The notes under the pieces: generated by a model
Told to the model about the DNA's origin: nothing
Seen by the model: the letters and a program-made list of their open reading frames with translations, nothing else
Databases searched by the model: none
Position numbers and translations under genes: made by a program
Shown here: positions 15,266 through 63,616 of the stretch, one piece after another
How positions within the stretch are numbered: the stretch's first letter is position 1
Layout: each line of letters begins with the position of its first letter
Origin: Ryuthela nishihirai
Taxonomy: Eukaryota; Arthropoda; Arachnida; Araneae; Heptathelidae
Direction: 5' to 3'
NCBI GenBank assembly: GCA_038380435.1
Contig: JAWZYU010000765.1
Coordinates: forward strand, 1 to 64,000
Length of the DNA stretch: 64,000 nt

Positions 15266-15271
15266 ACCCTC

Positions 15272-20096: not shown

Positions 20097-20671
20097 AATT
20101 ACAACTGAAGGTAAAAGGAAAAAATCAAAATGAACCAGAGTTCAGCAAACAACTCCTGAGAAAGTAAGCTAAACTATTTCTCAACGAAAGCACGAGAAAT
20201 AGCAACACAGAGTACAATATTCAACTCACATATCAGAAGTGCCCAGAAGAGGCACCAGAAACAGTAAGAACGTGACGTGTCAGTCCAGTACAGCCGTACC
20301 GGTAGAGGTGACACGTCCGCTAAGGCAGGGTGGTTGTAGAACCCGAATCCAATCGGCAAGAGTCAAACCAGGCAAGCCGAAAACCTGAAGTGGAAGCAGC
20401 CAGAAAGTAGAACAGACATCAGGAGCTCCGCCGGCGGGTAATCAGAAAACCCGGTTCGTCGTCTCCCGGAAAGTAGGAATCCCGCCCGTCCAGGCGAGGC
20501 AAAAGGTAGGAGTCACCAGATGGCGTAAGTAACCGCTTCTCGGCCAGGCTCCATCATAATCAAAAACTACAACACTCCTAAAGCTCTAAAATGGTAAAAA
20601 AGACCAATAAATTTGTAAAATCAAGAGCAAACATTAAAAAAAACAATAATCATTAAGCTGATAAGAACAGA

Positions 20672-23600
20672 TTTAAAAACTCTTTATTAGACCATAATTG
20701 AGAGATAAAATTGATGAAAGAGATGGTGCTTAAATTTCTTATATCGATCTTCAGCCCTTAGGCACAACATGAATAGTTACAGCAGACTTCAGCCCTTAGG
20801 CACAACAAGAGAGGTTACAATAATCTTCGGCCAATAGGCACAAACAGAAAAATGAACTTCAGCCCGAGTGGCACAGCAGAAATTGAAAGCCTTAATTGAG
20901 ACAGTCCAGGAGGCACAAATGCTGACACAGCAGGAGTTGCAAGCCAAAATGGATTCAGGCACATCATCTCAGTAGGTCCAAATTTGGTAGGAAATTGGTC
21001 GTAGTACGATGATGGAAGAAAGTTGAGAGGATAAATCAACATACTGCTTGATGAGGTGACATCTTGCAAACTGGTGGTCGAATTTATGTGCCTACGATGG
21101 AATCTGCGTAAGTGACGAGATCTGATGAATGAGTGAGAGACATTAGATACATGGAAAAAAATAAATGACAAGTTGGTAACTAGTTAGCGTCCCTTGATTT
21201 AGGGAGGCACAGAAGAAAAAGAGTTTCTCATCACTTGGAAAAAGAAGATGATGGGAGTTAAAAGCGTGCAAATAATATATAGAGCAGATGAAAGAGATAG
21301 ATGGTGACTACATTTCTTTATATTGTCGGACACCAGTAACATGCTCAATGTATATATCGCGGGACCAGGCGATGGTTTTGGATACCATGAGTTTTTTCAT
21401 CAGTTTGGAATAAATAGAAGAGATACTAGCTCTGGAGAGGACGAGGTCGTTAGCTGGATCCCATGATCTGAGAGAGCCGACGATGATAGCATCCACAAAA
21501 GCCGCCTTGCCTTGAGAGTTAAGATGGGAGACTATAAGTTGATATTTGTCGATCTTTCTTTTCCTGGCTTCCCAGAATGAGTTGATACCATTCTCAAATG
21601 GGATGGTGACATCAAGGATGTGAACTGCACTATCGAGGCCAGTGAAAACGATATCAGGTCTTAAATTCTCATCCAGGCCTGGAAATTTGCTGTTACAGTG
21701 AAGGTCTTTGATACCAGTGGGAAGCGCCTTAGTCTCTCCATAACCTCATTACGGCGCTTTTGCCAGGCAGCTGCATGTGGCTTGCAATGGTTGAGGACAT
21801 GTGGGATGGTTTCCATCTCAAACCCACATCGACGACATCTCCGGTCAGTGCAATGAAAGCAACGGTTTCCATTGAGGTTAAGGCAACCCAGTCTTGCTCT
21901 ATAAACAAACCTCCAGTTGCAGAATCTGGTGTAGGAGCCATTACCGGTGAAGTGGTTAGAAGAGATGCTAGCAGCAAAGCAAGTGGCTGTCTTGCCCTGG
22001 TCCCTTTTTGAGGAAAGACGGAGAAAATATGTAAATGTCGTGCTTGCTTTGAGAGAGCTGATTAAATGTTTACTGCTTGATGGAGTGAAGTAAACAGGAA
22101 GGGAGTCAGGGATGTTAACTTGGATCTGGAGTTCGTTCCTGGAGGGTGAGAAAACCCAGTTGCATATTCCTCTCTTATGAAGACGTCTAGAGGAGGAACG
22201 AACCTGGGTCCAAATGGATGAGATGTCGCCCCCATCTCTAACCCAAACTTCAGTGGATAAACCATTTAAGTAGTTGGTTTTGTCTTCAGCAGAAGGGGTG
22301 AATCCAAGTTTTCGTCTAATCACTGAGTGTAAGGTGTCGGATGCCAGAGACTTGATCAAAGGGTCAGGCGAAGATAGAAGTTTGAATCCATGGGTGACCG
22401 TGGAGATGTCAATTAGGTCCGCCATCATGGTGATGCCCATACCTCTATTGTTTGGAATGAATATAATTTTGGCACTGGCTCTGGAAGGGAGATTTAGCCA
22501 TAGTTTGGTGAATTTCTTAATCAATTTATCAAGCTCTTTAAAGTGTTTCTTCTGAATGTAGCTATTTAAGAGGGAGAAGTCGAGACGTGGTAAAAGTAGG
22601 GTTTTCAGGGCGTGGAATTTTTGCCATAGAGCTAGAGGAGATTCATTGAGTTTTAGAAGATCTTCTTTGATTTTTGCGATTTTCTCAAGAGGAGAATTGT
22701 CATTTCGAAAGCCTGTGGGTGTACCCAAGTATTTGAAAGACTGTTGATCCAGAAGAATTGGGCAAGGAGATTCGTCTAAGAAGAAAATGGTGTCTCGAAC
22801 TCTGCGCTGTTTCCTGCACTCGATGTGAATCGTGGCGCATTTAGAGGGCTTGAGTTTTAAGTTGGCGGCCTTTGCTGTGGTGTGGATTCTATTAAGCATT
22901 TCCTGCAAATTGGTTGGGCTATTGTTAGTGACTACCATATCATCTGCATAGACAAGTAAGGAAAATTTGCAGTTGTTAAGATTGAAGGCCAATTTATCCA
23001 GAGAGGCGATGCTTCTGATAATTGGCTCCAGGGCAAGGTTAAATAGCAAAGGGCTTAACGGACAACCTTGTCTGACTCCCGATGACATCAGTAACTCTCT
23101 TGTCCAGCCAGCAGAAGAGCGGATGGTATTAAAACAGCCATTGTATAGGTCTTCGATGATGTTGATGTACAAAGAAGGAATTTTCATCTGTTCCATGGCA
23201 TGCAGGATGTAATTATGGGAAATGGCACCAAAGACCTTTATGTCAAGCCATGCGATGCAGGCTTGTTTCCCAGATCTTCTGGTGGAGTCGATAATCTGCT
23301 GGAGGATGAAGGTAGATTGAGAGCAGCCACCATATTCTCTGAAGCCATTCTAACATTGGGAGAGCCTGCTGTTAGCCTTAGCCCAAATGCCAAGATGGGA
23401 GCTCAGAAGTCCAGTGTAGATTTTACCAATTGTGTTAAGAAGTGAGATTGGTCTCCAGTTATTGGGATCAGAGCGGTTACCTTTTTTGTGAATGAGGATG
23501 ACCTGGGATTTTTTCCAAGAGGCTGGGACTTTGCCAGTTTGGAGACAGCGATTGAAGATGTAGGTCAAAAGAATGCAATCAGGGTCAAATTTCCTCCAAT

Positions 23601-25214
23601 CTTTATAGTAAAGGCCATCTGGTCCTGGGGCTGTGTTGGTGGTTTTGGTTAGCCTGGTGGAGACTTCATCAATTGAGAATGGAGACTGAAGTGCCTGGTC
23701 AGAGTCTTGACATGAATCGTCGAAAAGCCAATGAGGAAAGTTGTCTGTAGTAGAAGCTCGTGTACAGTAGACTTCTGAGAAGTGTTTTTCCAAAACATCA
23801 GTTGCAATGATACAGAAGGGATTAGGTGGTTGGAGAATTTTTTCTAGAGTATTTTTGCTATTGAGTCGATAGGCTTTTTGTAGTTTGGAGGCTTCCGTTG
23901 CACTATAGACTGAATGGTTGGAGAGGTGGTTGTAGGAGGCAGAGGCAGGTTGAGTTGACGAAATCCGGGAGGATGGTTTACGGTGACTCAGTTGAGCAGT
24001 GATGTCGTCAGTAAGTTTGTCAATAATGGACTCAAAGGATGACCAGTCAGGAGTCTGGAGACTTTCGAGCCAATAACGTTGAAACTCAGTGATGTGGGAT
24101 GATGTGCAGTCGTCCACAATTTCGAGCCAAGTTTCATTATCTGGAGCAGCATGGTGGTTAACTGGGGGAGGTGCAGGATCTGAAGGGTCATTAAGAAATG
24201 AATTATTACAACTTGGGGAAGCTTGAGGAAGAGTAGTTCCAAGGTTGGCTGATGGGTAGGTGACCAGTTGATCAAGATGGTTTGAAGAGTGATGTTGAAC
24301 AACAGTAGTTGGAAGATTTGTAGGATTCAGTGACAGGTGGATGAACATCAGAGGACCCCGCAGAACAAGAAGGTCTTGAATAATCAGACTGGGAGAGAGA
24401 AGTTTCAGAGTTCAAGTCAGGAGGAGTTGATTGAGAGGTGTTTGCAAGGACGGGAGACAAGTCCAAAGAAGACGTGGTGGCAGTCGAATAATTAGCAGTT
24501 GAGCAATTAGCAGCAACGTCGAGCGCAGTCAGGATGGGGAGTAGGAGAGACATTCAGAGATAGATCAGGAATTGTCGGACGAGTCTCGGCATTAGAGAAG
24601 GAACCATTGACAAACAAGCTGTTCTGTCCAGAGTCGTATGTGGGTGAACGGCGCATAGATGAGGGCACTAAAGGAGTGACATAATCTGGATGATCAATTC
24701 TGAAGTGCTTTTTCATTGTCTTCGCATTATCTGCAGTAAAGGAGCACAATCTGCACTGTAGGAAGTAGTTGTACGTGGGATGCTTTAATCTTAAGTGTTT
24801 GGTTAGCTCACAGTGAGAGTTATAGATGCCAGTTGCTCTGATACCTGGTCTGATGGAGCACATCTAGCAATTGAAGGTGTCATCAGGTGGATACAAAATC
24901 GGATGGTCACCCATGCTATCACTTAGAATTAAAAAGACAGTTACCGTTAAAAAGATATGTAAAATTAATTGGTTGTAAGAAAAAGCTTAAAAGTAGAGCA
25001 GTAGCTAAAACAAAAGACCGCTTTTTCCTGTCTTTCTCAGCCTCAAAGCGGGAGCCCGGCAAGTATGTTGGTGACCGTTAAGGGTTTAAAATTTAAAGCA
25101 TGCTTACCAAAGGGAGGCTCCAAGATCTGAACTTCCAAAAGGTGGTAGTGCGCAACGGAATTTTCCGGCCCACAGGTAGAAGTAAAACCCAGATGGGTGT
25201 CAGGAAAACCCGAA
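20672..25214 (-). mobile_element. Unit B: full-length autonomous Utopia-type element
   Basis: A ~4.5 kb unit between two copies of the U2-like word. In sense order: a 5' leader with the GAGGCTGAGAAAG hairpin (near 25040-25060) and a GGTAAGC donor-like word near 25105, one broken ORF (24914 to 21308), a 3' UTR with four small hairpins (20750-20880; words CTTCAGCCCTTAGGCACAAC, CTTCGGCCAATAGGCACA), AATAAAG and the junction. It is complete in layout but carries at least two nonsense codons and two frameshifts. Confidence 0.85.
21308..24914 (-). pseudogene. Unit B ZF-RT-RLE polyprotein, inactivated
   Basis: Start ATG at 24914-24912, giving MGDHPILYPPDD like the unit O start. The second residue after the first finger cysteine is a TAG (24866-24864). 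Fingers follow (ELTKHLRLKH, QCRLC...KKHFRIDH). After a frameshift near 24.4-24.5 kb comes the WLESLQTPDW linker and the RT (NWRPISLLNTIGKIY). A TAG at 23350-23352 replaces the Gln of the QKGFRE block, then AWLD, GVRQGCPLSPLLFN and the catalytic YADD near 22945. The C-terminal region has CRRCGFEMETIPHVLNHC. A frameshift near 21.7 kb precedes the restriction-like endonuclease (RPDIVFTG...LDVTIPFE) and the terminal SRDIYIEHVTG. Would catalyse target-primed reverse transcription if intact. Confidence 0.85.
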
Positions 25215-25233: not shown

Positions 25234-27933
25234 GTTGAAATATCTTTATTCAGATAATGTTACAAAGTAAGAATTTGAAAAAGATTTAAATTTAGGCACA
25301 AAAGCCCATAGTCATCATCACTACACTTTTCTTCGTCCCCATGGGGGCACAACACAAAAACACGATACACTTATCTTCAGCCCCTCTGGGCACACATCAA
25401 AATATGGCAGCAGCTATCATTACGCAGTGTCTATGCCATACTATGTTTCAACCCAGTCTAAGTAGAATAAAAATTAAGAGCGAAAAAACTACTACATATA
25501 AATATAATTCGCTAATTTTTACTGGAGAAACAAAATCAACTGCCTCATAAAGCCAAATTAGGGAATCAGGTCCATGGTGTCATCTAACCCACCAATGTAT
25601 AAATACACATAGTAGGCTCCAAAGAGGATCAGTCATGGGAACCCCCAAACCAATATCCATGAAAGCACCTCTCTAATACACACCTTACATATCCAAGAGG
25701 GTAGAGTAGTAATAACTCCATAAGGGCATCACCAGAATGGAGAAGGCAGATCCATTGCCAATAGCGATTCCCGGAGCAACTACGCCAGCAACTCTCAATA
25801 TCATCATACAAGAGACAGTGAAGGCACAATCAACTTCAGTGACAAAATTATAAGTGCCCATTGAGGTAGTAAACTCCCTCCCCCCCCCACAAAGAAAGAG
25901 TCGGGAGAAGCGATAAAAATCACAATAACTAGTAAATCCTCCACATAAAAAGGCTGAGGCACTGGATCCCATAACTCAGGATCCCTAAATAACTTGTCGA
26001 ATAAGACTCCAGAAGGGAGAGAAAAATCAATCTGAAACTTCATATCCCATATAGGACAGTGTATCTTCTTCACAATAAGTCCAGAACACTCCACTTCATA
26101 TACAGAAGCCACAAAGTTATCCATATTACTATGACAATCCGTATCAAAAGCCCCAACCATGTCAGATAATGTGGGAGAAAATGCATCAGCCAATTCCCTC
26201 TTCTCTGCATCGTAATTATGTAATGTATCTGGAATCACTGAATCCAAGACATCAAAGTCCTGCATCAATTCACAAATCAAAGAATCAGCAGGAGCAAAAA
26301 TCATGTCAAAATCAATACACCATAAGGATGTATCCAAATTGATGTCAGCAATGTTATCAAAAGCATCTGGGATCGATGGGATTCCACTAGGGGGACCTAT
26401 TTCAGTAACAGCCGTGAAAGGACCATCAATCACAGTAGTGCAGGGTAACGTCATGACAGACTCTAAATGACAGTCACTATAAGCGGTACAATCAGAAGAA
26501 AGCGGTATGTCCCTCAAAACCTCAGCAATGGTAATGTTCCACTTGTAGTCCTCAAAAGCAACAGCTTCTAATTTCTTCAACGAGGACTCCAAAAAAGAAT
26601 CTCCTACAATGGTATCACTAGAGGAAAAAATAAACTCCTCAGACGTATGAAACTTCCCATCAGAAATGGCAATGTTGTCAACTGCTAAAATTTCAGTCCC
26701 AAGACAGTCTCTCAACCCCATTAGGAAGGAAAAGTTGTAAAAATCATCCTCAGAAAAATCCACATACCTCGACCATAAATATCCAAAGTCGTCGTTCATG
26801 CAGCTCTCCAGAAATTCGTTATAAGATGCCACAATTACAGAGCTCCAGGTACTCGAATCCTCCATGAGCTCCTTAACAGTGTAATTACCCCTGAATTTAG
26901 GAAGATCCTCCAAGTGGTAAGTTACTTCATATCGAATTATCTCCTGCAACTTATCAAGCTCTGATTCACGCATTACCAGTAAGAAACCAGTAGTAGAGTC
27001 AAGAACGGACTCAATTTCTTTCAAGCGAGGACTCGTATTCGACGGACAGAAATCACCATAAATAGGCGAAATGTCCCCTCCTGGTATCGTCATAGCCTCC
27101 AAAAGTGGAACTAATTGGTCATAGATTGTTGTAAACAGAAATCCAATAATCCGTTCATCCACACATGGGAAAAAATTTATCTCATTTACCCATGAGAGAT
27201 GGGAGTGTAGAACATGAGCCCTTACCCCTCTCAAGGCAAGGAACTCCTCGTTACGAACTTTACATTTAAGACATGATGTCAATATAGTATGCTGAGAAAG
27301 CAAGTGGTCAACTAGATTAATAACTTTCACATAAGAGTCACAAACCAGTATATCCACATCATCACAACAAAAGGGCCAACAAGACCCCTCATAGAATTCA
27401 ACGCCCCTTACCTCCTTCATTGTGAAAAACAGACGTACAATAAATGTAGAATATCACTATACCTTGCAACAGCAATTCAAATACTCCCAGGAGAACACCG
27501 ATCAAACGTAATCAATTATAGTCAATATACCATTTCCAGTTACCAACCAAAAGATGTTATCCAGTCCACCAACGGCTCCAATATCTACCCCAGCATCAGT
27601 CTCAAAACTTCCTCCAAACTCCTTCAGCAGTCAAGTCTCAGCAGATCAGCCCTCAGTCAGCCAGCTCCACCACAGTAACCCCAGCAGAAAAGACAGTTTT
27701 CCAACTCCAAAAGCTCCAGCACTATTCAGTCCTTCACAGTCAACAGCAGGCAAGCGGGCAGGAAAAACAGGTCAACGACTCCAAGGAACTTCACCAGTAG
27801 CAGGCAGGTGGCTCCCTCCAGCAACTAAAAGTAGGTAAAAGTAGGTGATCGCCTCTCGGCCCATGGTCATCTGGTTGTCAGCTTCCAATCGTCCACTATA
27901 AAAACTGTTAAGGGGTAAGAAAGAATAAAAACA
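25234..27933 (-). mobile_element. Unit C: zinc-finger-only non-autonomous element
   Basis: A 2.7 kb unit between U2-like words. The 5' end holds the GGGCCGAGAGGCGATCA motif (27847-27870). One long ORF follows, with no RT or endonuclease. The 3' end carries three hairpins (25290-25400; for example CTTCGTCCCCATGGGGGCAC and CTTCAGCCCCTCTGGGCACA). It has the same ends as the other units and is presumably mobilised by autonomous relatives. Confidence 0.8.
25804..27420 (-). CDS. Unit C zinc-finger-only protein, 538 aa
   Basis: The N-terminal ~75 residues align position for position with the finger pair of unit O, but two ligands are lost: residue 15 is Trp (a Cys at 14 may substitute) and residue 56 is Arg. 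H39, H44, C53, H69 and H74 remain. The middle is strongly acidic. At about residues 279-300 lies LKKLEAVAFEDYKWNITIAEVL, a motif also present in units E and O. A GPPSGIPSIPD linker follows near residue 340. A G9 run (25880-25888) near the C-terminus shifts the frame: an alternative frame (25685-25972) keeps a hydrophobic tail resembling units D and E, so the last ~25 residues are probably not original. Role unknown; DNA or RNA binding is inferred from the fingers. Confidence 0.7.
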   Translation of the reverse strand: MKEVRGVEFYEGSCWPFCCDDVDILVCDSYVKVINLVDHLLSQHTILTSCLKCKVRNEEFLALRGVRAHVLHSHLSWVNEINFFPCVDERIIGFLFTTIYDQLVPLLEAMTIPGGDISPIYGDFCPSNTSPRLKEIESVLDSTTGFLLVMRESELDKLQEIIRYEVTYHLEDLPKFRGNYTVKELMEDSSTWSSVIVASYNEFLESCMNDDFGYLWSRYVDFSEDDFYNFSFLMGLRDCLGTEILAVDNIAISDGKFHTSEEFIFSSSDTIVGDSFLESSLKKLEAVAFEDYKWNITIAEVLRDIPLSSDCTAYSDCHLESVMTLPCTTVIDGPFTAVTEIGPPSGIPSIPDAFDNIADINLDTSLWCIDFDMIFAPADSLICELMQDFDVLDSVIPDTLHNYDAEKRELADAFSPTLSDMVGAFDTDCHSNMDNFVASVYEVECSGLIVKKIHCPIWDMKFQIDFSLPSGVLFDKLFRDPELWDPVPQPFYVEDLLVIVIFIASPDSFFVGGGGSLLPQWALIILSLKLIVPSLSLV

Positions 27934-28250
27934 TTAAGCTGATAAGAACAGAGTTGAAAATCTTTATTCATCAAATGTTTACAGACAGATTTGTTAAAGT
28001 GATAATAAAAGGCCTAAAGGCCCATAGTCTTCATCAAAATACAAAAATCTTTGACCCTGTAGGGCACCACACAAAAACGCGAAGAAACATTCATCTTCAG
28101 CCCATGGGGAACACAATAAACCGCGCACTAGTAATCATAAATTAGACATCGTCATTGTAGAAAGACATTCATTTAATGTTCCAACCCAGTCAAAATTTAA
28201 AAAAGTAAAAGGAAGGAAGCAAATATTCTAAAAAGTGATAGGAAAAAATC

Positions 28251-29504
28251 TCACTCACCAAAAGCCAAAAGATAGCTTCGTCCCCAAATGAGAGCACACA
28301 AATACATTAGTAACATCCACGCCGAATCCAGGCTGTGGGAAATAAAATAAGACCAGAGAGGCTCAGTAGGAGGGGGAAAGAGGGAAATCCTCACAGCCCT
28401 CTTACACTCAGACGCCACATTAAAAGAAAGGTCAATTCTCCATTTCTTGGAAGTGACCACAAAATCATTCCCATGAACCACGGGACCACAATCATCCATC
28501 ATAGCACTATTCACTGAGAGAACGTGGAAGTCATCAAAAGAGGAGTCCAAATTAATAATCTTACCAGGTGCAGAAAATGAATTGTCGCATATATCCTGTC
28601 CTGTATCAGAGTTCTCAACACTGTCACTCACAGAAGAACTCCATCCTGACTCGTCAACCACAGCGAGACTCGGGCCCAGAGCCAATATGTCCAATGCAGG
28701 GGGACCCCTTCTGCTATCAGAAGGAATAGAATCCGCAGTAGACAAATTAGCATTCATGTCAGACACTATACATGTGCATTCCAAAATATCATTCCGAGCA
28801 AGACTCTGATTTAAAATATTATCATCAGAAGATACATTCAAAATATCGTTCATACTTAATACTGTTCCCCATCCAAAGTCATCCACCGCAGCGAGACTCG
28901 GGCCCGGAAGCAATGTGTCCAATGCAGGGGGACCCATTCTACTATCAGAAGGAATAGAATCCACAGTAGACAAAATAGCCTTCGTATTAGACGCTCTATA
29001 AGAACTTTCCAAAATATCATTCTGAGCCAAACTCGGATTTAAAGCGTTATCATCAGAAGATACATTCAAAATGTCATTCTTACTATTTACTGTGCTCCAT
29101 CCTAAGTCATCAGCCTCCGTGAGACTCGGGCCCGGAGACAATGTGTCCAATGCAGGGGGACCCATTTTACTATCAGAAGGAATAGAATCCACAGTAGACA
29201 AAACAACATTCGTGGCAGTCACTGTATGTGAACTTTCCAAAATATCATTCTGCGCAAGATTCAGGTTTAAAGCCTTATCATCAAAAGATAAATTCAAATT
29301 GTCATTCTTACAAGATACGATATATGAACTATCACAAGCGGAATCCCGACATAGGTCAGTGCATACGGTAGATTCCAGACTCTGAAACAAAGTATCCGAT
29401 GTCGGGGAATTCATTCTGTCACAAGAAAAAGAAGGATTTACTAGAAAAGAATTCATATAACTCACATCCTCCAGAATACCGTCCTGTTCAGTGTCTCCCA
29501 TCAA
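28251..29504 (-). CDS. Unit D protein with three 76-aa repeats, 417 aa
   Basis: An open frame following the damaged finger region. Residues ~67-290 are three tandem repeats of 76 residues (starts at 67, 143 and 219). Each contains NDIL, LAQNDILE, STVDSIPSDSRMGPPALD and a GPSL...DD-GW block. The MGPPALD phrase recurs as MGPPPSLDSL in unit N and GPPSGIPS in unit C, so the repeat has amplified a linker shared by the whole class. The C-terminus is hydrophobic (WMLLMYLCALIWG), possibly membrane-seeking. No catalytic domain recognised. It was probably one ORF with the fingers upstream; a break near 29.5-29.7 kb separates them. Confidence 0.7.
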   Translation of the reverse strand: MMGDTEQDGILEDVSYMNSFLVNPSFSCDRMNSPTSDTLFQSLESTVCTDLCRDSACDSSYIVSCKNDNLNLSFDDKALNLNLAQNDILESSHTVTATNVVLSTVDSIPSDSKMGPPALDTLSPGPSLTEADDLGWSTVNSKNDILNVSSDDNALNPSLAQNDILESSYRASNTKAILSTVDSIPSDSRMGPPALDTLLPGPSLAAVDDFGWGTVLSMNDILNVSSDDNILNQSLARNDILECTCIVSDMNANLSTADSIPSDSRRGPPALDILALGPSLAVVDESGWSSSVSDSVENSDTGQDICDNSFSAPGKIINLDSSFDDFHVLSVNSAMMDDCGPVVHGNDFVVTSKKWRIDLSFNVASECKRAVRISLFPPPTEPLWSYFISHSLDSAWMLLMYLCALIWGRSYLLAFGE

Positions 29505-29740
29505 AAAGGGCCATGTCTCTAAAAAGTCGTTTATCGATGCGCTAACAGTTCTAAATAGAAGGTTAAGTCAAAGTTCAATAGCGCCATCACAAAACCCAAG
29601 TCACTAGCCAAAAGGGAATTTACCACATTATATTTAAGATCAGAAGGAAGACCAAGGTAGGCATCAGAGGGATCACTCACATTATAATGTAGAGCGAGAA
29701 ATTTGTCTCATGCCCCCTCTCTACAGTCGTCCATTTCATA

Positions 29741-30150
29741 TCACCAAGAAATATGCTTCAAAATTCTCCTTAGTTGAATAGCTGTCAGGCCAAATAAAAA
29801 GTCAGTATTATTATTAACATTGGAAGCATCCATACTGGAAACCTCCCTTCCAAGAGGATGATGAAAGTGCATTATATGCTTCCTCATGTCACTCAAGGAC
29901 GGGGTTTCAATATCACAGATTCGACATTGTAAACAAAATTTTAGAACAGTGTGAGATAGCAAAAGATGATTCATCTATTTCATACAATCAGCATACGTGC
30001 TAATAATAATACTATCATTATCACAACATAAGAAACACCCGGGATCGCCAAATGAACGGTATATATCTCAGGCCTGGGAGACCGCAGCAAAACTTGCATT
30101 TTAAGTTCCCAAATGGGAAAAGAATGGGCAGGTCCAGTTGTGAACTCGTG
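29741..30150 (-). pseudogene. Unit D zinc-finger region, broken
   Basis: The reading LPILFPFGNLKCKFCCGLPGLR (30060-30130) gives the first finger's cysteines. After a frameshift and a TAG the second part reads HLLLSH-TVLKFCLQCRIC...MRKHIMHFHH (29741-29974), giving the first finger's histidines and the whole second finger. This is the same arrangement as the other units, in pieces. Confidence 0.7.
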
Positions 30151-30439
30151 TTGAAAGTTGAAACAAGTTTGTATGAGAGAATGTAGCATAAATTTAAGAC
30201 AATAATGAGAGAATATAGCACAAATGTAAGACAATGATGATTATAGCAGTAGCCATTGGCAAGAGACTGCTTTTCCCACCTTTCTCGGCCTCAAAGCGGG
30301 AGCTCGGCAAGTATATTTGCGACCGTTAGGGTTTAGGGGTTTATATTCAAAAATATACTTACCAACGGTCGGCTCCGGGTAACTGTCCTTCTTCCCAAGA
30401 GATGGTGTTGGGCAACGGCATTAAGCTGATAAGAACAGA

Positions 30440-53370: not shown

Positions 53371-54402
53371 TTTAAAAATTCTTTAATAGCCAATATTTGA
53401 GAATACAGTAGTTTTACAAATGGCATAGAAGCAGGTGCAGGTGCAACAAAGATCTTCAGAAACAGACGTCTTCAACCTGCATAACAAAGGTAATCACGGA
53501 GCAGATCTGAAAAAGAAAATGAAGTTGTGATCCTTTTGGTGAGACGTATCGTTGGACCCAGAAGAGGCACAGCAAAATTCTTCTGTAACAAAAATCTTCA
53601 GCCTCTTGTACAGGCATGACGGAGGGTCAAATGAAGAAACAGAAGAAAATTGTGAGCCGGAAACAAGGACGACAAGGAAGCCAGAGGGATGCATCAAATA
53701 AAAGCTCGTCGAGGAAACCTTGGAAGCTGGAAGAAGCTGAAGAAGCAGAGGCGCATCACGGAGGCAACCAGGAGGAGAAGCGAAGCAGGTCACAGTTGGC
53801 AGCTCAAACCCTGCGAGCGAGAGGGCTCAAATTGACAGAATAGGAGCAGGCGTAGCAATTCCCTGGAACAGAGGCCGTCATGGTTGCAGATGGAAGAAGG
53901 TCTTCACAAAAAGAATCCGCGGGCATCCAGCACAAGGAAGAACAGACTTGATGAGCAGTGTTCCCAAAGAAGACTGTGAAAGTCCAACTGTTCATGTGGT
54001 GAAGTCAATGAGAAGATGGTAATCAGGAGGCAGAGTGAAGAGATGAGGACGAAAGCACGAATCTTCTGAGCTGAGCAAGGGGGCTCAAAATGAGGCTTGG
54101 AAGAGGTCGTGGTCCAACCACCATGAGCAACGCTGAATCATTAGTGTTGATCGTCAAGGGACGAAGCAGCTTGGTAGGTTGTAGTTGTGCCCCCAGTGTA
54201 AAGAGGAGAGCGCCTCTATTCCTGTAATCGGGGCACCTATTGCCACGGTCAGCGTTGGGTCTAAGAAGAGCAATGAAGCACCAAGCTACAAAGTCAGTTG
54301 AACAAAAAGATGGTGATGGAGGAAAAAAGGTGTCCTCTGGAAGGTTGACTGATGAAAAATTCGTGAGATGTTTGTTAATGTTAATAATTGTTAATGTTAA
54401 AA
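53371..54402 (-). mobile_element. Unit M: 5'-truncated non-coding element
   Basis: About 1.0 kb, closely matching the 3' portion of unit H (43281-44310), including hairpins GCAGGTGCAACAA...CTTCAACCTGC and GAGGCACAGC...CTTCAGCCTC. The 5' end is lost; the last ~40 bp before the next junction are TTAATGTT repeats, probably filler DNA added at insertion. Confidence 0.75.
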
Positions 54403-54421: not shown

Positions 54422-56569
54422 GGAAATTGTTTATTTAAATCATATTTACAGAAAAGATTTGTTAAAATTGTCATAAGAGGCTTCACCGCCTCTAATCTTC
54501 GTCAATATACAAAATCTTCAGCCCCTAGGGCACAACACAAAAACGCGAAGCACCACAGTCAAATACGAAATTCACAGTCATCTTCTGCCCTAAAGGGCTC
54601 CACAGAACACTATAAAAGAAGCACTCTTGAGACACCATAAATAATACACACTCCCCCCCCCCAAAATAATCCAAAAAGAAAAGAGGGAAAGTAAAACCAA
54701 TCCCTCCTCTATATCCACTAGCAGGTGCTACAAAAAAACGTAGCAACCCAAAAACTATAGCTATGAAACCCTTAAATGGCAATATCATAAAGCATAAATC
54801 AGGGGGGTAAACCCATAATTATAAATCCCCCCATACAACCATTGCCAGGGACCATAAAAAAACCAGGAGAAAATAATTTCATAAAAAAACTTCCCTCTTG
54901 TCATCACCACACCCCTCAATAAATGGGGAACAAAATTTGGCATCCAATTAAAAAAATAAAAAATCATCAAACTCCACTGACGTGGTCCATTTGGCCCAAA
55001 GAAGACAATAAGAAACTCGTATACCCTCCACGGGTAGAGGCAACAATTACATAATAAGGGTAGTAGACACCAGATACATAGAAGGAATATCAAACCCGGC
55101 TTTCTGAAGCAAGACTCCCTCTTACTAAAAGATATCCCGATCGACCTCTCCAACGAATAACTTGATCCATCGACACCCCATCGAAAATCGTATAAGGAGG
55201 AGTCAATCCCTTTAATGTCCAGGGCCAGGGGGTCACCATTCGACTCATCAGAATCAACCAGTAAATGGGAAAAATTTGTCGAAACAAGACTATGTCCCTC
55301 CAACATATAAGGAACCTCATAATTAACAAAAGTGGAAAAAGACTCAGCAGGTTCAGTCATCATAGAGCATAATTCCTCTTTAGGACCAATACTGGCCCGC
55401 AACCCCTGACCCTCCATCTCTAATAATGGGAAGTCGTTAAGGAATTCATCGCATAAAGTCATCAAGGGGAGGTAATCACTATCGATGTCAATTGCATCAA
55501 AGTCGACACTAAAAACAGATTCAACCTCCTCGTACTCACAGTCCTCGGACTCCGGAAGAATAAACCTGAAAATCACGGTAGATGGCATCGATAACTTCAC
55601 TGTCAACGGGACTATCATAAGGTTTCTTAGAGTAATTAGTAATAGCTAGGTCCCAGTTCACCTCGTCGTCCACCAAAGACTCCAGACATGACAACAAGGA
55701 GTCCAAGGAGGGAGGGGGACCCATTCCATTACAAGATGGCGGGGAAACCTGCACATCAGTATGGATGGCTAACTCGGGTATCATGGCTTCCCCGCGTCTA
55801 CTGTCATCAATAAAAGCATGACCATCATCATAAAATTCAGTCTTACAAGAGTGTTTCTTCATATTCATTAAGCTCAGGGTCTCTACATTACAAAAGCGAC
55901 ACCGAAAGCAGAATTTCTTTACGGTGTGCATAAGAATAAAATGATCTAATAGAAGCCCATAGTTAGGAAATGTAACCGGCCCATTTGTGCCGTCCACTCC
56001 CGCACACACATGGCAAAAAAATTTTTCGAACGGGTACAAAATAATTAATTCCTCCATTGTATAACACATATCCCACAAACTCACTCTCAATACCAGATAA
56101 ATCCAAAGTACTCAAAGTCTCAAAGCACACTAGTCCTCTTCCCAATTCAATAAGAAACAGTCTCACCAACTCCAAGTAACGACAAAGCGCCAGACCATAT
56201 CACCAGCAGTCAATTCATCATCGAATATCACCCGGCAGCAACTCATTCCTTCCAATTTCTCCACAGCAGCAACCCCACTCAGGCAATCAGCTCCATTTCA
56301 GTAGGCTTCTTCAGGTCAGTAGCACCGCAATCCATCAGATTCCATAAGTCCGCAATCTCATCCAGAAAAGCAACTTCCTTCCTCAAAAGGCACCCCGCAT
56401 GTCACTCCAGAGACGAAAATCCAATAGTCAAAACACCAGGCAAGATCCAGTCAGTGGCTCCCTCATCCGAACACTCCAGGCAAGTCCGTGATCGCCTCCC
56501 GGCCTAAGGTCGTCAAAGTCCAACAGCTTCAGTAAACTTCATCTAAAATCAGTAAAAAAGAGGATAAAA
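54422..56569 (-). mobile_element. Unit N: zinc-finger-only element
   Basis: A 2.15 kb unit with TTAGGCCGGGAGGCGATCA at its 5' end (56487-56510). The ORF is broken once (56057 to 54785). Hairpins are at 54480-54600 (CTTCAGCCCCTAGGGCAC, CTTCTGCCCTAAAGGGCTC). A C10 run lies at 54653-54662. Confidence 0.8.
54785..56057 (-). pseudogene. Unit N zinc-finger-only protein, one frameshift
   Basis: I choose the ATG at 56057 (MEELIILYPFEKFFCHVC) because it puts the ligands at C15, C18, H39, H44, C53, C56, H69 as in unit O. The last histidine is missing, so the second finger is incomplete. MGPPPSLDSL and LLSCLESLVDDEVNWDLAI follow. A frameshift near 55.56 kb passes to a 277-aa frame with an acidic stretch (DFDAIDIDSDY) and a long hydrophobic, Trp/Phe-rich C-terminus (PGLIFLLCIWCLLPLLCNCC and later segments), suggesting one or more membrane-spanning or buried helices. 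Confidence 0.75.
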
Positions 56570-56588: not shown

Positions 56589-59500
56589 TTTCAAAATTCT
56601 TTATTAGTCCATGGTAACAGTTATACAGTGATAATTTTTGGAATGATGAATCGTGAAGATAGTAGCATAAAAGCGAGATAGAGGGCACAGCAAAATTCTT
56701 CTGTAGACAAAGATCTTCAGCCCACTGTACAAAATCAGTAAATTACAAAATTTGGCGTGATAGGCACTACAATAATCTTCAAAAACAATTGTCTTCAGCC
56801 TATCTAACAAATATGTCGGTGATGGGAGTGTGGCCCATACTAAGAGTATATTGTAGACAGTTGACAGTTAACGTTTAACTGAAAAGCAGCCGTGCCTTGG
56901 ATCAGGAAAGCACTGGGTGGAGACGGTGTAGGTGGTAGCCAACGGTTAAGCCAACGCAGAAGGGAAGGGAAGGCAGCGGGGGCCAGGGGTTCATCAGACC
57001 TGGTACTGCCTGCGGCCGGTGATATGTTCCACATATATGTTCCGTGACCAGGAGATGGTTTGGGAAACTAGCAGTTTCCTCATCAGTTTGGCATATTGTG
57101 TGGAGATGCCCAGGCTTCTGATTGTTGTTTCATTATTCCTATCCCAGGAGCCAAGGGAACCAACAATGATGGTTTCCACGGTTGCGTTGATCCCTTTGTC
57201 CGCAAGGTGGTCAACAATGGGTTGGTACTTTTCCACCTTACGTTGCTTGGCCAGTCGAAAGGAGTTCAGACCGTCTTCGAATGGAACGGTGACATCCACA
57301 ATGTGTATCCTGTTATTCCGATCCATTAGTGTCAAGTCTGGCCTCAGATTCTGAGGGATATCTGGAAACCTCTGATTCACCCTCACATCACGTGAGTCGC
57401 GGGGAAGGGCCTTAACAATGCGACTCAGTACATCATTGTGCCGCCGTTGCCAGGCGTCTGCGTGGGGAGTGCAGTGATTAAGGACATGGGGAACAGACTC
57501 CAAAGGGTATCCACACCTCCTACATCCACGGTCACCTTGGCCGAACCGTCTTGCTCCGTTGAGTTGAAGGCAGCCACAGAACCGGAAGTGGCCGCCTTTG
57601 GGGATAAAGTGGTTTGAAGAGTTGTGGGCCGAGAAGCATGGACTTGTTTTGCCCTGGTCGGGCTTTCTGCCAAGGCATGAGAGGTAGTGAAGGGCGAGAG
57701 AGGTTTTTAGTTGCTTGGTGGCAGTGTCTCCCCCAGCCGGTGTGATGTAGATAGGAAAGTCGGCGTTCCCAAGCCTAAGCTGAATCTCCTCTCTGGCAGA
57801 AGCATATGTCCAGCTGATGTTGATTTTCTTGGCCATTCTCTTACAGGCCGCTCTAGAGGCAGACCACACAGAAGCAATGTCGCCGCCATCCCTTGAAAGA
57901 CCATTCTCAGAGCTCCCGTTGAGGTAGCCAAGGATGTCGTCAGTGGTGGGGGCTCTGCCGAGTTTCCTCTTGACCGCAGCAGAGAGAGAGGACAGGGCCA
58001 AGGCGCTGGTCACGGGGTCATTGGAGGACAGTAGCTTGAAAGCATGGCTGATCCTCAGTATATCGACCATGTCGCAGAGTTGGAGGATGCCAGCACCACC
58101 CTTCCAAGTTGGGATGTAGATAATCTCATTGCTGGCCCTCGATGGCAGATTGAGCCAGATCTTCAGGTTCTTTTTGATAGCTTTGTCGAGGGATCGTAAG
58201 TGCTTCTTTTGGACGAAGCTATTTGTCAAGAAGAACTCGAGGCGTGGCAGAAGAAAGGTCTTGGTTGCGTGAATTTTCTGCCATGGGGCAAGGAGTGACG
58301 TACTAATTTTCCCCAAGTCAGTCAGTGTACTGGCGATGCGTTCCGTGGGCGTCTGGTCGCACTTGAAGCCCAGTGGCGTTCCCAGGTAGGTATAGCTCTC
58401 GCCTTCCTTCAGTGACTTGATGGGAGTGTCATTGATGCGGAAAGTTGTGGCCTTGGCCCTTCGACCCTTCCGACAGTCGAGGGGTTGAGCCGCAGGTTGG
58501 CAGTGGAACATGCCAGCTGGATAGATGTAATCAGATCTTGCAGGCCAGTGGGGGATTTGCTGATGACGACCATGTCGTCAGCAAATAACAGGATGGGAGG
58601 AAGTGTAGACTGTAGGATGGAGTAACTGGCTTGTGTTGCGCAGGCCGCACGGATGATCGGTTCTATGGCTAAGTTAAAGAGCAGGGGGCTAAGCGGGCAT
58701 CCCTGCTTAACTCCGAAGTTCATAGGTAGCGGACGGGTCCATCCACCCACATGACGAACTCTGTTAACACATCCGGAGTAGAGATCTTGTATGATGTTGA
58801 GCAGGGGTAGTGGCAGGTGTAGATTCCGAAGGACAGCAAGAATGTATTCATGGGATATGGCCCCAAAGGCGTTCTCCAAATCCAGCCAGGCCACACAAAC
58901 TTCACGGTTATTTCGGCGGGCATCACTGATGATTTGCTGAAGGGTAAAATTTTGCTCAGCATATCCATCGAATTCCCGGAAGCCCTTCTGGCATGGCAAG
59001 AGGATATTGCAAGATTTAGCCCACGAGTCCAATCTTGTACAGACAAGGCCTGAGTAGAGCTTGCTGACTGTGGACTGCAAGGCTATGGGTCTCCAGTTGC
59101 TGGGGATTGCAACACTGCCTTTCTTATGGAGTAGGATGACATCCGCTTCTTTCCAGGAGGATGGAATGCGTTGAAAGGTGAAGCAGCGGTTAAAGATGTT
59201 GCAAAGAACCAAGCAACCTGGGTCCATCTTCTTTAGGTCATTGTAGAAGAGGCCATCGGGGCCGGGGGCAGAGTTGGGGAAGTGGCAGAGGCGCTCCAAG
59301 ACTTCATGCGGTGTGAATGGGGAAGTCAACTGGGTGGTGACATCAGGTGGAGGCAGGTCAACAGGGAGTGGTGGGAGCATCGAAAGGTCCACCTCCTTGG
59401 ATTTGTAGACGTCGGTGAAGTGTTCCTCGAGGACCTTACAGTCGATGTCACACATGGGGTTGCTGCTTTCAATGATGGATCGGATGGCCTTCTTGGCGTT

Positions 59501-60897
59501 GGTGTAGTACAGCTTCTGTATACGTGACGCCTCTTTAGCGTTATAATTAGCTGTGGCCGGGTGGTGCAGGTTTACATTACTGGGCTCTCTAGGTGTTGGT
59601 TGAGACGATCGACATAGCAGGTGCTTATGCCTTCGGCCCAAACTGCCAGCGACCATAGCGGTAAAGTCGTTTACCGTAACCTCAAAGTCGTGCCAGGTGG
59701 AGGTGGCGTCGAGTCGCTCAAGCCATGTTTGTTGGGTTTGGCTGGGATGACGACCAGCAGGAACGTCCTCAAGTATCTCAACCCATTCGTTGTCGCCGGA
59801 GGCATCATGTGGTGAGATGGGCACATTCTCCGCCAAGATGTTCCCCGCGGAGTTGGTCAGAGCAGTGGGGCAGGCAGGTTGAGGAATGGTGGCCGAGACG
59901 TCTAAGGAAGGGGCTGCGTGGACATCAGGAGTAGTCGCCAACCCGATGTTAATGGAGGGCTCCACCGCAGTATGGGTTCGCTCAAGAGCAATGCAGGTGC
60001 TTCGGTCCAGGACAGAGGCCATGGTTGCATTCCAAAGCTCGTCGTTGAAAGCAGCGACTTCCAGGCTCCTCAATTGACTTTGGAGAAGGGATCTCGGGGC
60101 GGAGACATTGATGGAGACCGATGGAGTGATAGGTGCAGTGTGCTCAGGAGTGCTGGCGAGGATGGGTGAAAGCTGCCGGCCGACAGGTGGAGGGGTGTAG
60201 TGTGTTGTAGCAGGAGTGACGAGAGGAGAGCGGGCGCAGTCCAGAAGAACCGATGAGGTGAAAGGCTGTTGAGGTGCGACTGGAGGATGGGCAGCGGAAG
60301 CAGTCGGAGAGATGGCCTTTGGAGGTTCATAGGTGAGAGTAGTGAGATCAGTGGCGAATGAGACGGAGGAGGATGCAGCGGTGGAAGGCTGTGAAGGCGT
60401 GGCTAAGGATGAGCATGTAACATCCGGGTGTGCGGTTCTTAAGTGCTTGTTGATAGACTTCCTGTTATTTACAGTGAAGGAGCACATCCGACACTTCAGG
60501 AAATAGTTGAAATCTGGGTGCTTCAACTTCAGATGCTTAGCCAGGTCACTATAGGTCTTGTAAGAGCCGGCGACTCGTATTCCTGGTTTGGAAGAGCATG
60601 ATGTGCACTTGAAAGAGTCAAAGGGGAAAAGGATGGGATAGTCCTTCATGTTGGTTCGCCAGGAGAGTAACGATGAAAGTTTTCAGTGAGCGTTGACAGA
60701 TGGCGCCACAATACGGGCGGTGAAACAGTCGAGCGCCTTCTCGGCCTCAAGGCGGGAACCGCACGAGGAAGGTTCGAAGCCTTTAAGAGGCCCCCTTGGG
60801 AGTTGAGCGTAGCTCGGTTTACTTTTAATACTATACTCACCAAGGGGGTGGCTCCACTGATGCGGTTCCGGTCATCCGTCTAAGGTCCAGCGTCAGA
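56589..60897 (-). mobile_element. Unit O: autonomous Utopia-type element
   Basis: A 4.3 kb unit. The 5' module (60700-60890) carries GGAGCCACCCCCTTGGTGAG, GAGCTACGCTC and CCAAGGGGGCC, shared with units F, H, I, J and K, and GAGGCCGAGAAGGCG (60723-60745). Hairpins: GGGCACAGCAAAATTCTTC...CTTCAGCCC (56680-56725) and GATAGGCACTACA...CTTCAGCCTATC (56758-56805). AATAAAG follows before the junction. Confidence 0.85.
56994..60649 (-). pseudogene. Unit O ZF-RT-RLE polyprotein, inactivated by deletions
   Basis: Starts MKDYPILFPFDSFKCTSC; fingers C15, C18, H39, H44 and C53, C56, H69, H74. Pro-rich spacer, then QSQLRSLEVAAFNDELWNATM (shared with zinc-finger-only units) and WLERLDATSTWHDFE. RT: APGPDG, NWRPIALQSTVSKLY, QKGFREFDG, AWLDLENAFG, GVKQGCPLSPLLFNLA, FADD near 58.58 kb. 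Near 58.47 kb about eight codons (the KCAT-H block) and the frame are lost. After the switch the frame runs to 56994 with CRRCGYPLESVPHVLNHC and RPDLTLMD...VDVTVPFE. A further in-frame loss of about ten residues precedes GCLQLNG. Inactive, but it may still donate or receive shared RNA ends. Confidence 0.85.
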
Positions 60898-60916: not shown

Positions 60917-63053
60917 TAAAAATTGTTTATTAATTCATGTTTCAAGTACAAAGATTTGTTAATATATATCATGGTTTCGGCTTCACGGCTCATATAAAAG
61001 TCATACACAAATCTTCAGCCCGTCCTGGCACAACATTGAAACACAATAAAACAATAGTCATTCACCCAAAGGGCATAAGACATAATCTTCAGTCCCAAAG
61101 TAGTTTAAAATAGGGACGCACAATCAAACGCGTAGTTAGTTTCGGCGAAGAGTCATACAAAATATATCAGCCCCTTGGGGCACACACAAAACACTAGCAC
61201 AGAGTCTTCAGTCCCCGTCAAAAAAACCGAGGACACACAGTCAAACGCGTAAAAAAAAAACAGTCCAGTAGTCATAAAAAGAGTAAAATTTTTAATCAAT
61301 TCTCTTCTACAATAAAGATTGTAGAATCGTGTCCATATCTATTAAATTAAAAACCCGTGCCCCGGTACCATCTCACCCTCAATCCAGGAGTAACCCAGCC
61401 CCAGGGAAGGTCAGTCGATCTCTATCCAGAACAGTCCCTCCATACCCGATTATCGATAACACCCTTACCAGCCCCACCCATATGAACATTCCCATACATA
61501 GCCTAGTTAAGTTATAAGATATAAGCCCCGGGAAAGTCATTATCCGGACCCAGGACCCAGGCAAAACATTCTCCTCGACGGACAGCACCGTCTCCCCTCC
61601 AAGGAAGTTCACCCCTAAGCGCACAGATTAATTCCGGAAAAATATTCAATTGCAATTAATCCGTGAATTGGTCCATTTATTGCAATTAATCCTTTTATAT
61701 ATTATCTCCTGATACTTCATGAATTAGTTCCTCCGAGGGAACCTTCCAGAGACAAATGCATCATTATCAACCAGTACTTATATGTGAGTGGAGGGGGGGG
61801 GGTTTAAGTCCTTGGGCCTTTTAAACCCCCAGAACCCCGGCGAAATAGTATCCCCCACGGACGGCACCTCCCCACTATTTGAGTTCCCGTACCAACGCAC
61901 AGAATTCCAGGGCCGTATAGATAGCCCAACCCTGGACCCTGGCAAAACAGTGTCCCCGACGGACGGCTCTCCAGTTACTCAGTTACCATTTACAAAAAGT
62001 AGTTTCTCATGTCCGTCATCCTCGGCGGCAGGAATCCAGCTCTCATTTATACTGCCTCAATCCCGTGACATGCTCTACATATATGTCACGTGACCATTCG
62101 ATAGTTTTGGAAACCATTAACTTTCTCATCAGCTGGGCATATTTTGACGAAATTCCACAGCTAAGCAGAACCGGATCATTCCCTGGATCCCAAGAGCCCA
62201 GTGTACCCACAATCAGGGCATCCACAAAGGCAACCATTCCCTTAGATTTGTAGTGATCTACGATGGGGAGATATTTTTCTATCTTCCTGTTCCTTGCCGC
62301 CTCAAAGGCTGGAAGTCCATCCTCGAACGGAACGGTGACGTCGATGACATGTACTATGCCATCTCTGCCGGTAAATATCAGGTCAGGACGAATATTTTCA
62401 TTGATGTAGGGGAATTTTTCATTACATCTGATGTCTTTTGTTCCCCTTGGCAGAGCCTTCTTGAACCTCTCCACGATGTCATTGTGGCGGCGCTGCCAAG
62501 CCGCCGCATGAGTAGTACAGTGGTTTAGCACGTGAGGTATGGTTTCGAAGCCATAACCACATCTGCGGCAGCGCTTGTCCCCTGCTCCAAATCTTTTTGT
62601 TCCGTTGAGGTTTAAGCAACCCAACCGAGCTCTAAAAACAAAGCGCCAATCACAGAACCTACTAAAATTTCCCGAGCTGACAAAGTGATTGGACGCCTGG
62701 TGGGCAGCAAAACAGTGGGATGTCTTCCCTTGGTCCCGCTTTGTGCCTAATAGAGTTAGGTACTTCTCCGCATTTGTAGCTTTCAGGTGCCTGGTCAACT
62801 GCTTCCCTCCGTTCTCCAAACAGGACCAGGCCTGATCACTCCCCTCATTTAATGTTAACTCAAGTTCACCGGTGGAAGGCACGGTGGCCCAGCCCATTAC
62901 TATCCGGTTTCTCAGTCTTCTTGAGGCAGTTCTTAATCGAGACCAGGTTGTTGAAATGTCTCCACTTTCGCGCCGGAAAATTCCTGTAGACACACCGTTC
63001 AAATAATCAGCTAATTCCTGGAACCCGGGAAACTCACCAGTTTTCCTCCGTTA
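60917..63053 (-). mobile_element. Unit P: 5'-truncated autonomous element with a long 3' UTR
   Basis: Only the RLE-containing C-terminal part of the ORF remains (62043-63049), ending at a perfect foldback. The 3' UTR is ~1.1 kb, two to three times that of B, G or O. It holds hairpin words (CTTCAGCCCGTCCTGGCAC near 61013, CAGCCCCTTGGGGCAC near 61170) and three degenerate copies of a block containing CGACGGACGGC (about 61550, 61835 and 61945). Confidence 0.75.
62043..63049 (-). pseudogene. Unit P RLE domain fragment
   Basis: The 319-aa frame from 63002, plus in-phase sequence back to 63049 (RRKTGEFPGFQELADYLNG), aligns with residues ~590-861 of unit G. It contains RFCDWRFVFRARLGCLNLNG, the CCHC motif CRRCGYGFETIPHVLNHC, the nuclease core RPDLIFTG...IDVTVPFE, RKIEKYLPIVDH and the terminal WSRDIYVEHVTGLRQY. 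This is the only copy whose endonuclease reads through to the natural stop without a break, but RT and fingers are gone. Confidence 0.85.
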
Positions 63054-63082
63054 GGAGGAAAACTGGTGAGTTTCCCGGGTTC
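63021..63082. repeat. Perfect 29-bp foldback at the orientation switch
   Basis: GAACCCGGGAAACTCACC... (63021-63049) and its exact complement (63054-63082) flank GTTA. The left arm is coding sequence of unit P. The right arm joins plus-strand unit Q. Both the size and the 4-base centre resemble the foldback at 33480-33556. Confidence 0.95.
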
Positions 63083-63597
63083 TACTCAGCTGCGGCGTCT
63101 CCAAGACCTACGCGCAGACTATGAGGAAGCTGATGGTGTCAAAGACCATCGAGTGGTCCAGGGACATTTACGTCGAACACGTGACTGGCAATCGGCAGTA
63201 TACGACCACTAACACCTCTGCCACCTAACCTGTTACCCCCCTGGCTTCATCTCCGATCGGCCTTCTAAAGTGCCCCATGGGGACGAAAAATTCGCTACAA
63301 TTGTTGTTGGTGCCTACGCTAGGCCGAAGACAAACATAAATTTCACTTCCAAAAATTTATTATTTTTTAAACGCGTCTGTCAGTGCCCCACAGGGACGAA
63401 GACAATTGTAAATTTCACTTTCCCAAATTTTATTATTATTCTAAACGCGTCTGTTAGTGCCCCTCGGGGACGAAGATTCCTGTAATTCCTCTGGTTGTGC
63501 CTATTCTAGGACGAAGAACACCTCTACTGTTATGCCTCCATAGGCTGAAGATTATGTATTTCAAAATTAATAATTGGCTTAATAAAGCTTTTTCAAA
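63083..63597 (+). mobile_element. Unit Q: 3' end of a plus-strand autonomous element
   Basis: From 63091 to the TAA at 63226-63228 the plus strand encodes CGVSKTYAQTMRKLMVSKT and WSRDIYVEHVTGNRQY, the C-terminus of the RLE protein. The 3' UTR has six hairpins in a row (GTGCCCCATGGGGACGAA, GTGCCTACGCTAGGCCGAAG, GTGCCCCACAGGGACGAAG, GTGCCCCTCGGGGACGAAG, GTGCCTATTCTAGGACGAAG, ATGCCTCCATAGGCTGAAG). AATAAAGC and the U2-like word at 63598 follow. Confidence 0.85.
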
Positions 63598-63616
63598 TCT
63601 GTTCTTATCAGCTTAA

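Follow-up and report, generated by a model that had tools for sequence, protein, structure and literature searches.

A mostly head-to-tail array of Utopia-like retrotransposons joined at copies of a U2 snRNA word in the spider Ryuthela nishihirai

Organization of the array

Contig JAWZYU010000765.1 of Ryuthela nishihirai (GenBank assembly GCA_038380435.1) carries within its first 64,000 nucleotides (nt), here called the window, a run of some twenty whole or partial non-long-terminal-repeat (non-LTR) retrotransposons that covers about 45,000 bases. A short word of U2 small nuclear RNA (snRNA) sequence stands at all but two of the joins. Very probably this is a nested, mostly head-to-tail array of restriction-like endonuclease (RLE) elements of the Utopia kind, which are specific for a U2 snRNA site, and it grew by serial insertion. 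The stretches between words are named U1 to U16, with U0 to the left and U17 to the right; the sense strand is the minus strand, and the 20th base of the word, a T, is counted as nt 1 of the unit. The element named U2 is always called unit U2.

A scan of the window allowing up to three mismatches found 17 copies of the word, 16 matching on the plus strand and one on the minus strand at 63598-63616, compared with a mean of 0.02 in 100 dinucleotide shuffles. This confirms the sixteen minus-oriented junctions and the single inverted junction of an earlier interpretation made from the letters alone (the sequence-only reading). Fourteen copies are exact, two have one mismatch and one has two; substitutions affect 4 of 340 positions. 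The word had been described as about 19 bp long, but a T follows it on the sense strand in 17 of 17 cases, so the repeated unit is 20 bp, TCTGTTCTTATCAGCTTAAT. Beyond this T the copies diverge, and the sequence past the 20-bp limit matches neither U2 snRNA nor the other junctions. In element sense, the leftmost 20-bp word lies on the minus strand at 20652..20671. The 19-bp forms of the other minus-strand words start at 25215, 27934, 30421, 33215, 33599, 35654, 43262, 45219, 47646, 49485, 51179, 53352, 54403, 56570 and 60898, and the inverted 20-bp word is at 63598..63617 on the plus strand.

In a blastn comparison with U2 snRNA (a sequence of human type), the word corresponds to nt 39-58 with one constant difference, a C at nt 53, which would fit an invertebrate U2. 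The assignment of the word to U2 was thus correct. It also agrees with published descriptions of Utopia, whose 3' flanks begin at U2 nt 39 and which in reptiles makes a target-site duplication (TSD) of 20 bp, the length of the word at all 17 junctions (PMC4640811; this and the other papers cited are drawn on in excerpt). Judging from the shared word, the 20-bp copies would represent TSDs. The target sequence of Utopia is therefore present, while the body of a U2 gene is absent from the window. Past the word, blastn with the same query detected no sense-strand U2 snRNA sequence beside any junction in the window, and no Rfam family, those of rRNA included, matched there at gathering score. The earlier statement that no U2 gene body is left holds for this orientation; it has to be amended for short matches to U2 nt 1-14 in antisense, which occur in six leaders and are discussed below.

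At the 3' side, an A(A/T)TAAA signal begins 14-17 nt short of the terminus in every one of the 18 ends checked. It reads AATAAA, as had been reported for the junctions, in 15 of them and ATTAAA in the remaining 3. Likewise, the rule of one word per junction applies to 17 junctions but fails at two joins without a word, at about 38,074 (between U7a and U7b, within a 7.6-kb word-to-word stretch) and about 63,050 (head to head). The limits first given for the array, 20653..63616, proved too narrow, since the unit to the left reaches about 18,740 and another begins right of 63,616. As had been noticed, the units differ in family and length: word to word they span 365-7589 bp, and neighbors are either unalignable or 65–95% alike over parts only.

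Proteins and element class

Pfam RVT_1 matches, indicating a reverse transcriptase (RT), were found on the minus strand in U1 (20672..25214), U7a (38075..43261) and U15 (56589..60897), and U16 (60917..63050; open reading frame (ORF) 62043-63050) matches the C-terminal part of those proteins. The U7a protein aligns with R2 proteins of PDB through the RT and more weakly at a CCHC knuckle and an RPD...D endonuclease motif. At its N-terminus there are two C2H2-like fingers, for which the Pfam matches are weak. All four components, N-terminal zinc finger (zf), RT, C-terminal zf and RLE, can be seen among the pieces of U15 (two frames, 58409-60682 and 56994-58577) and U7a (zf 41198-42817, RT/RLE 38773-41373). 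No apurinic-type endonuclease (APE) domain matched in the 20 ORFs scanned of 25 listed with at least 150 amino acids (aa).

Because zinc fingers, RT, CCHC and RPD..D motifs were found and an APE match was absent from the 20 ORFs scanned, these elements belong to the RLE class, as the sequence-only reading had suggested, and their layout is the one published for Utopia (PMC4640811). Keno (Tx1 clade), which needs an apurinic-type endonuclease, was rejected on the same grounds, and R2 was rejected because its target is 28S rRNA while the shared word is U2 sequence and no rRNA family matched.

The RT of U7a had 549 database protein matches, the best at about 40% identity. The named ones among the 120 matches listed come from ants, bees, a beetle, grasshoppers, leafhoppers, a flea, scorpions, spiders, a pseudoscorpion, Daphnia, sea turtles, a tortoise, hagfish, a soft coral and a sponge. 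A tree of 38 rows was built from 34 of these 120 homologs and the four window RTs, without a labelled Repbase Utopia or an R2 outgroup. The window RTs formed one clade (SH-like approximate likelihood-ratio test, SH-aLRT, 95) beside a spider sequence from Nephila (99), with ant, bee, grasshopper and turtle sequences nearby.

Two fragments accompany these units. U7b (35673..38074, minus strand) is a piece of the donor family defined below and is joined to U7a without a word. To the right of U16, an inverted 3' fragment on the plus strand (63051..63597, left limit approximate) has a match to the RLE C-terminal part and a 3' untranslated region (UTR), and the inverted word separates it from U17 (63617..64000, plus strand), which runs off the window. 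The 5' side of U16 ends in a 62-bp near-palindrome (63021-63082, 93.5% self-complementary), where the minus- and plus-strand RLE fragments meet head to head; it may be a fold-back rearrangement or an assembly artefact.

Growth of the array

The truncated units separate target from element. U5 (33234..33598) and U13 (53371..54402) have lost their 5' parts, and additional bases stand at the junction (in U5 a 13-bp tail of the word that is repeated, in U13 38 unmatched nt of filler), with the word still upstream; it is therefore not the element's own 5' terminus. Nor is it an obligate 3' terminus, because U7a has a normal 3' end without a word, abutting the 5'-truncated U7b. As far as the sequence can tell, the word is target and not element. 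Together with the dissimilarity of neighbors, these units give good support to the earlier proposal of serial insertion into a duplicated target.

In such a process each copy would most likely enter by target-primed reverse transcription. A staggered cut of 20 bp (nt 38/39 and 58/59) would duplicate nt 39-58, and each duplicate would become a fresh target for the next insertion. The array contains four RT/RLE units, six zf units without RT (one of which is cut off at the left edge) and shorter units that have neither part. The join of U7a and U7b would go back to a jump of the RT between two element RNAs or else to an insertion that made no TSD, which is what PMC4640811 reports for arthropod Utopia; jumping of the R2 RT in vitro is cited in PMC3414825.

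Several observations weigh against this account. The 64-kb window, the only DNA considered, contains no U2 gene, empty site or second allele, and the two joins without a word do not follow the scheme. Arthropod Utopia families are described, in the excerpts of PMC4640811, as lacking TSDs, yet the nearest named RT is from a spider and 17 words are present here, at variance with the arthropod type. None of the four RT frames is uninterrupted (U1 has an in-frame stop, U7a and U15 have frame breaks and U16 is truncated), although sequencing error may be behind this. A 3' motif, GGYTGAAGA, which 17 of 18 ends contain within their last 300 nt, is missing from U12. If the array grew at its 5' edge, its older words would lie on the left; the three mutated words are all among the 8 leftmost as opposed to 0 of the remaining 9, but this decay is not significant (p 0.08), the split was chosen post hoc, and no polarity of growth is claimed. 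Finally, U9 (45238..47645), U10 (47665..49484) and U11 (49504..51178) are 90–95% alike over 346-449 bp of their 5' ends while their interiors and 3' ends differ. By this pattern they are mosaic elements, and mosaic units show, as read from their alignments, that recombination or template switching also acted.

Two other origins of the repeated word have to be weighed. The word might have been carried in the element RNA, through read-through or a U2 cotranscript, and hence be templated by the element instead of arising from a staggered cut. A U2 cotranscript would indeed contain U2 up to nt 58, and for melanogaster-type R1 elements transcripts have been inferred whose upstream 28S sequence anneals to the target (PMC2718515). 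However, the cDNAs of U5 and U13 presumably stopped before the RNA 5' end and the word is upstream of both, and U7a ends without a word, so that we find this origin improbable. Tandem duplication at the DNA level or unequal exchange between words, combined with gene conversion that diversifies the units, would fit the 90% similarity of U8 (43281..45218) and U13 over 1028 bp, the common and then diverging 5' ends of the mosaic units U9 to U11 and the inverted block with its near-palindrome, but it is a very unlikely source of the array because no two neighbors are full-length copies of one unit, U8 and U13 differ in their 5' ends (one is truncated, with filler) and several 5' contexts and 3' variants occur.

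Serial insertion as such is already known from Drosophila R1: its tandem copies are separated by a 14-bp TSD, and the published explanation is that new copies enter the 5' TSD of a resident one (PMC2718515, Stage & Eickbush 2009). R1 thus resembles our array in having a TSD between copies and in growing into the TSD of a resident. It differs in its 28S target, in the size of its runs (2-3 elements on average in each inserted rDNA unit where levels are highest, PMC2718515) and in being of APE type (PMC4640811), whereas the elements here are RLE-type, belong to many families and include members without RT. The scale and the mixture of our array go beyond the published accounts in the excerpts cited.

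Utopia itself, of the NeSL clade, shares the U2 site, RT and RLE, N- and C-terminal zinc fingers and, in its reptile form, the 20-bp TSD; its arthropod families, for which no TSD is reported, differ from our elements in this point (PMC4640811). Utopia-1_NVit of Nasonia is occasionally inserted in tandem, and Phytophthora has several Utopia families with a common target (PMC4640811). Relative to these descriptions, as excerpted, about twenty units in one run, zf units without RT, units with neither, splice-signal classes and antisense-U2 leaders are found only here. The arrays of HeT-A, TART and TAHRE are likewise mixed and head to tail, which is an analogy only, the proteins not having been compared; those elements are added to chromosome ends with poly(A), in contrast to the internal target word used here (PMC5537684). 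A puzzle noted for Utopia is that several families persist although U2 has few copies (PMC4640811). An array could offer such elements an expanding niche beyond intact U2 genes if every insertion regenerates the target.

Units without a reverse transcriptase

A split into autonomous and non-autonomous units was one of the points that went beyond the sequence-only reading, together with the two splice-signal classes and the antisense-U2 leaders described further below. Six minus-strand units have the two-finger N-terminal zf segment without an RT match. Five of them are bounded by words. The sixth, U0 (18740..20652; zf segments 20084-19743 and 19134-18909), lacks its 3' part at the left edge, where low-GC flank takes over from about 18,740 (approximate), and its RT may have been lost at this cut. 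Uninterrupted zf ORFs starting from ATG are present in unit U2 (25234..27933; 538 aa, 25804-27420) and U12 (51198..53351; 454 aa, 51217-52581). The zf ORFs of the other four are interrupted or incomplete: U4 (30440..33214) has a 291-aa ORF at 31733-32608, after which the frame is broken, U14 (54422..56569) has a zf ORF at 55536-56069, and U3 (27953..30420), which has a donor-type 5' end and a 3' end like that of U14, keeps a zf remnant at 30134-29726. U3 also contains a 438-aa ORF within which 228-bp repeats (2.9 copies) extend over 28654-29318.

The zf proteins of units U2, U4 and U12 are 35–40% identical over 234-391 aligned codons. The differences at codon positions 1, 2 and 3 amount to 0.40/0.32/0.50, 0.41/0.39/0.58 and 0.48/0.33/0.60 in the three pairs, so the third position carries most differences in each. 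Because of this pattern, the aligned codons show constraint at the protein level. An alignment search, which detects only relatives sharing 5-residue words, found no relative of the zf protein at E≤0.001 among 7991 scored candidates. A stretch of unit U2 past the fingers resembles the U15 protein (E about 1e-4), which makes it probable that the zf protein arose from the N-terminal region of the autonomous one.

Neither an RT nor a zf match was obtained for U6 (33618..35653), U7b, U8, U9, U10, U11, U13 and the 365-bp U5. Five of these, U6 and U8 to U11, are 75–84% identical to U15 over 112-134 bp of the 5' region. They share this region and the 3' module and lack the RT interior, an arrangement of the type known from short internally deleted elements (SIDEs). 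An RT acting in trans would need a common 3' module, and the shared ends of our units fit mobilisation in trans, as in the R2 SIDEs. By this analogy, the RT of autonomous relatives probably mobilised the RT-less units. In 9 of 18 unit 3' UTRs we observed a short hairpin ahead of GAAGA. GAAGA and the hairpin are a candidate for the structure that the RT recognizes. A resemblance of element 3' ends to U2 sequence upstream of the site (134 of 396 matches) was discarded, since p was 0.02 by shuffling and 0.21 by column permutation.

The R2 SIDEs are also non-autonomous, have ends in common with an autonomous site-specific element and are thought to be mobilised in trans, but they consist of a 5' ribozyme and a 3' end (PMC3414825). 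The zf units differ in retaining a gene under constraint, and an HDV-like (hepatitis delta virus-like) ribozyme was not found. Rfam gave no HDV match at gathering score, nor at E≤1 over 18,000-64,000, and a crude descriptor matched 0 of 6 donor-class leaders. A zf lineage that is truly maintained without RT would amount to a non-LTR parasite with its own protein of the target-binding type and a borrowed enzyme.

Splice-like signals in the leaders

The 5' ends fall into two classes according to their splice-like signals, which were scored with weight matrices. The donor class (U1, U3, U6, U7a, U8 to U11 and U15; n=9) opens with a putative exon that leads up to TGGTRAGYATR. This splice-donor consensus is located 55-142 nt into the unit (in U1 the donor lies after nt 107). 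It is within the best conserved block of these leaders, and the sites rank 6th to 31st of 44,302 positions. The acceptor class (U0, unit U2, U4, U12, U14 and U17; n=6) has a polypyrimidine tract and AG at its start. The AG ends at nt 27-29 in four units and at nt 66-67 in two (U0, ending at 20586, and U17, where the aligned AG at nt 66 ends at 63682 and the best-scoring AG is at nt 84). The best acceptor scores rank 4th to 57th of 44,292 positions. In the first 120 nt of the donor-class leaders, U7a alone has a comparable acceptor. The 5'-truncated pieces (U5, U7b, U13, U16 and the inverted fragment) were placed in neither class.

For their expression, the acceptor-class units may rely on splicing from donors that lie upstream in the array, and one may speculate that the CTTAAT end of the word serves as a branch site in four of them. 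Donor and acceptor units seem to alternate along the array, but this is suggestive by eye only and is not claimed. Also by eye, stem-like GGGTTTT...ACCC stretches recur in the leaders of U0, U17, U1, U6 and U8 to U11.

Complementarity of the leaders to U2 snRNA

All six acceptor-class leaders contain a sequence antisense to U2 nt 1-14 with at most two mismatches, which occurs nowhere else in the window. It is located at 20532-20545 in U0, 27848-27861 in unit U2, 33136-33149 in U4, 53269-53282 in U12, 56491-56504 in U14 and, on the plus strand, 63722-63735 in U17. Allowing three mismatches gives 11 matches, these 6 included, where 2.47 are expected by chance. When G-U pairs are counted, 14 of 14 positions pair in five of the leaders and 13 of 14 in U4. 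Three donor-class units that bear zinc fingers, U1, U3 and U15, have a related sequence, GAGGCYGAGAARG, antisense to about U2 nt 5-15 (in U1 as GAGGCTGAGAAAG at 25032-25044, in U3 at 30280-30292, in U15 at 60736-60748), and U7a has no antisense-U2 motif.

These signals could be due to chance, or be inherited in related leaders without any function, an explanation that we rate as quite plausible though short of probable. The units are related, so that counts of units are not independent trials. Yet on the array sense strand exactly four of 44,298 positions (U17 left out) pair at 14 of 14, all of them in acceptor-class leaders, while 200 mononucleotide shuffles gave 0.01; the other array strand and the left 18.7 kb have no such position. 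When leaders are anchored on the motif, U0 and U17 are 82% identical to units U2, U4, U12 and U14 at the motif and 20–38% identical in windows clear of it, and all motif differences between the two groups except that of U4 keep the pairing with U2 through G-U. On the other hand, unanchored scans find 14-nt matches of 79–86% between the groups elsewhere too, and among 8 leader pairs the motif gives the single best match in 3 and a tied one in 2.

Folding energies are divided in the same way. The duplex energy with U2 nt 1-38 reached z -2 or lower in 9 of the 15 leaders, whereas with each of six decoys 0-1 of the 15 did so. Of these nine, eight have lower energies than any of the 1000 control segments from the array; U1 is the exception (16 controls are as low), and its z was -1.9 in another shuffle set. 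U7a and the five RT-less donor-class leaders tested had no low U2 duplex energy. Pairing with U2 as a separate molecule was rejected, since with self-folding counted the cofold gain is the same for motif-bearing and other units, which favors the absence of function. When short leaders are folded in cis after U2 nt 1-58, all 9 motif units form the helix (mean probability 0.84-0.98), but with 220-nt leaders only 7 of 9 reach 0.8 (unit U2 0.12, U1 0.14). At this setting 2 of 250 array segments and 8 of 180 shuffled leaders do so, and U7a, although without the motif, reaches 0.73 with another helix.

If the leaders are functional, the likeliest arrangement is a cotranscript from the U2 promoter in which the retained U2 5' end is part of the leader structure. 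Tentatively, we consider it possible, if doubtful, that the zf elements are such cotranscripts, their U2 5' nucleotides pairing with the leader motif, and that RT-less units are spliced from upstream donors. The RNA would keep U2 nt 1-58 at its 5' end, with about the first 14 of these nt paired to the motif. The U2 fragment would then belong to the 5' structure or tether the ribonucleoprotein to nascent U2 RNA. The word would mark the start of the 3' splice sites to which donors of upstream units are spliced, and the array would be a cooperative expression unit rather than a pile of dead copies. A working U2-complementary leader would mean that a retrotransposon RNA uses the transcript of its target gene as a part of its machinery. 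A narrow phrase search of the literature gave no match for a retrotransposon with complementarity to U2 snRNA.

Hairpins and the left flank

Near-perfect hairpins were also observed within U5 (33480-33556, 92% self-complementary) and within U6 (33739-33791, 94%). Matches to microRNA families in the near-palindromes and hairpins were below Rfam gathering scores and were set aside.

To the left of the array, positions 1-18740 form a low-GC, CpG-poor flank. A pattern scan for viral contigs gave 2 matches that look like chance. RT fragments are found in the flank at 1957-2208, 3371-3721 and 13236-13855 (plus strand), and a Gypsy fragment is present at 11522-12145 (plus strand). The latter has 133 database matches, with 33–57% identity among the 120 listed.

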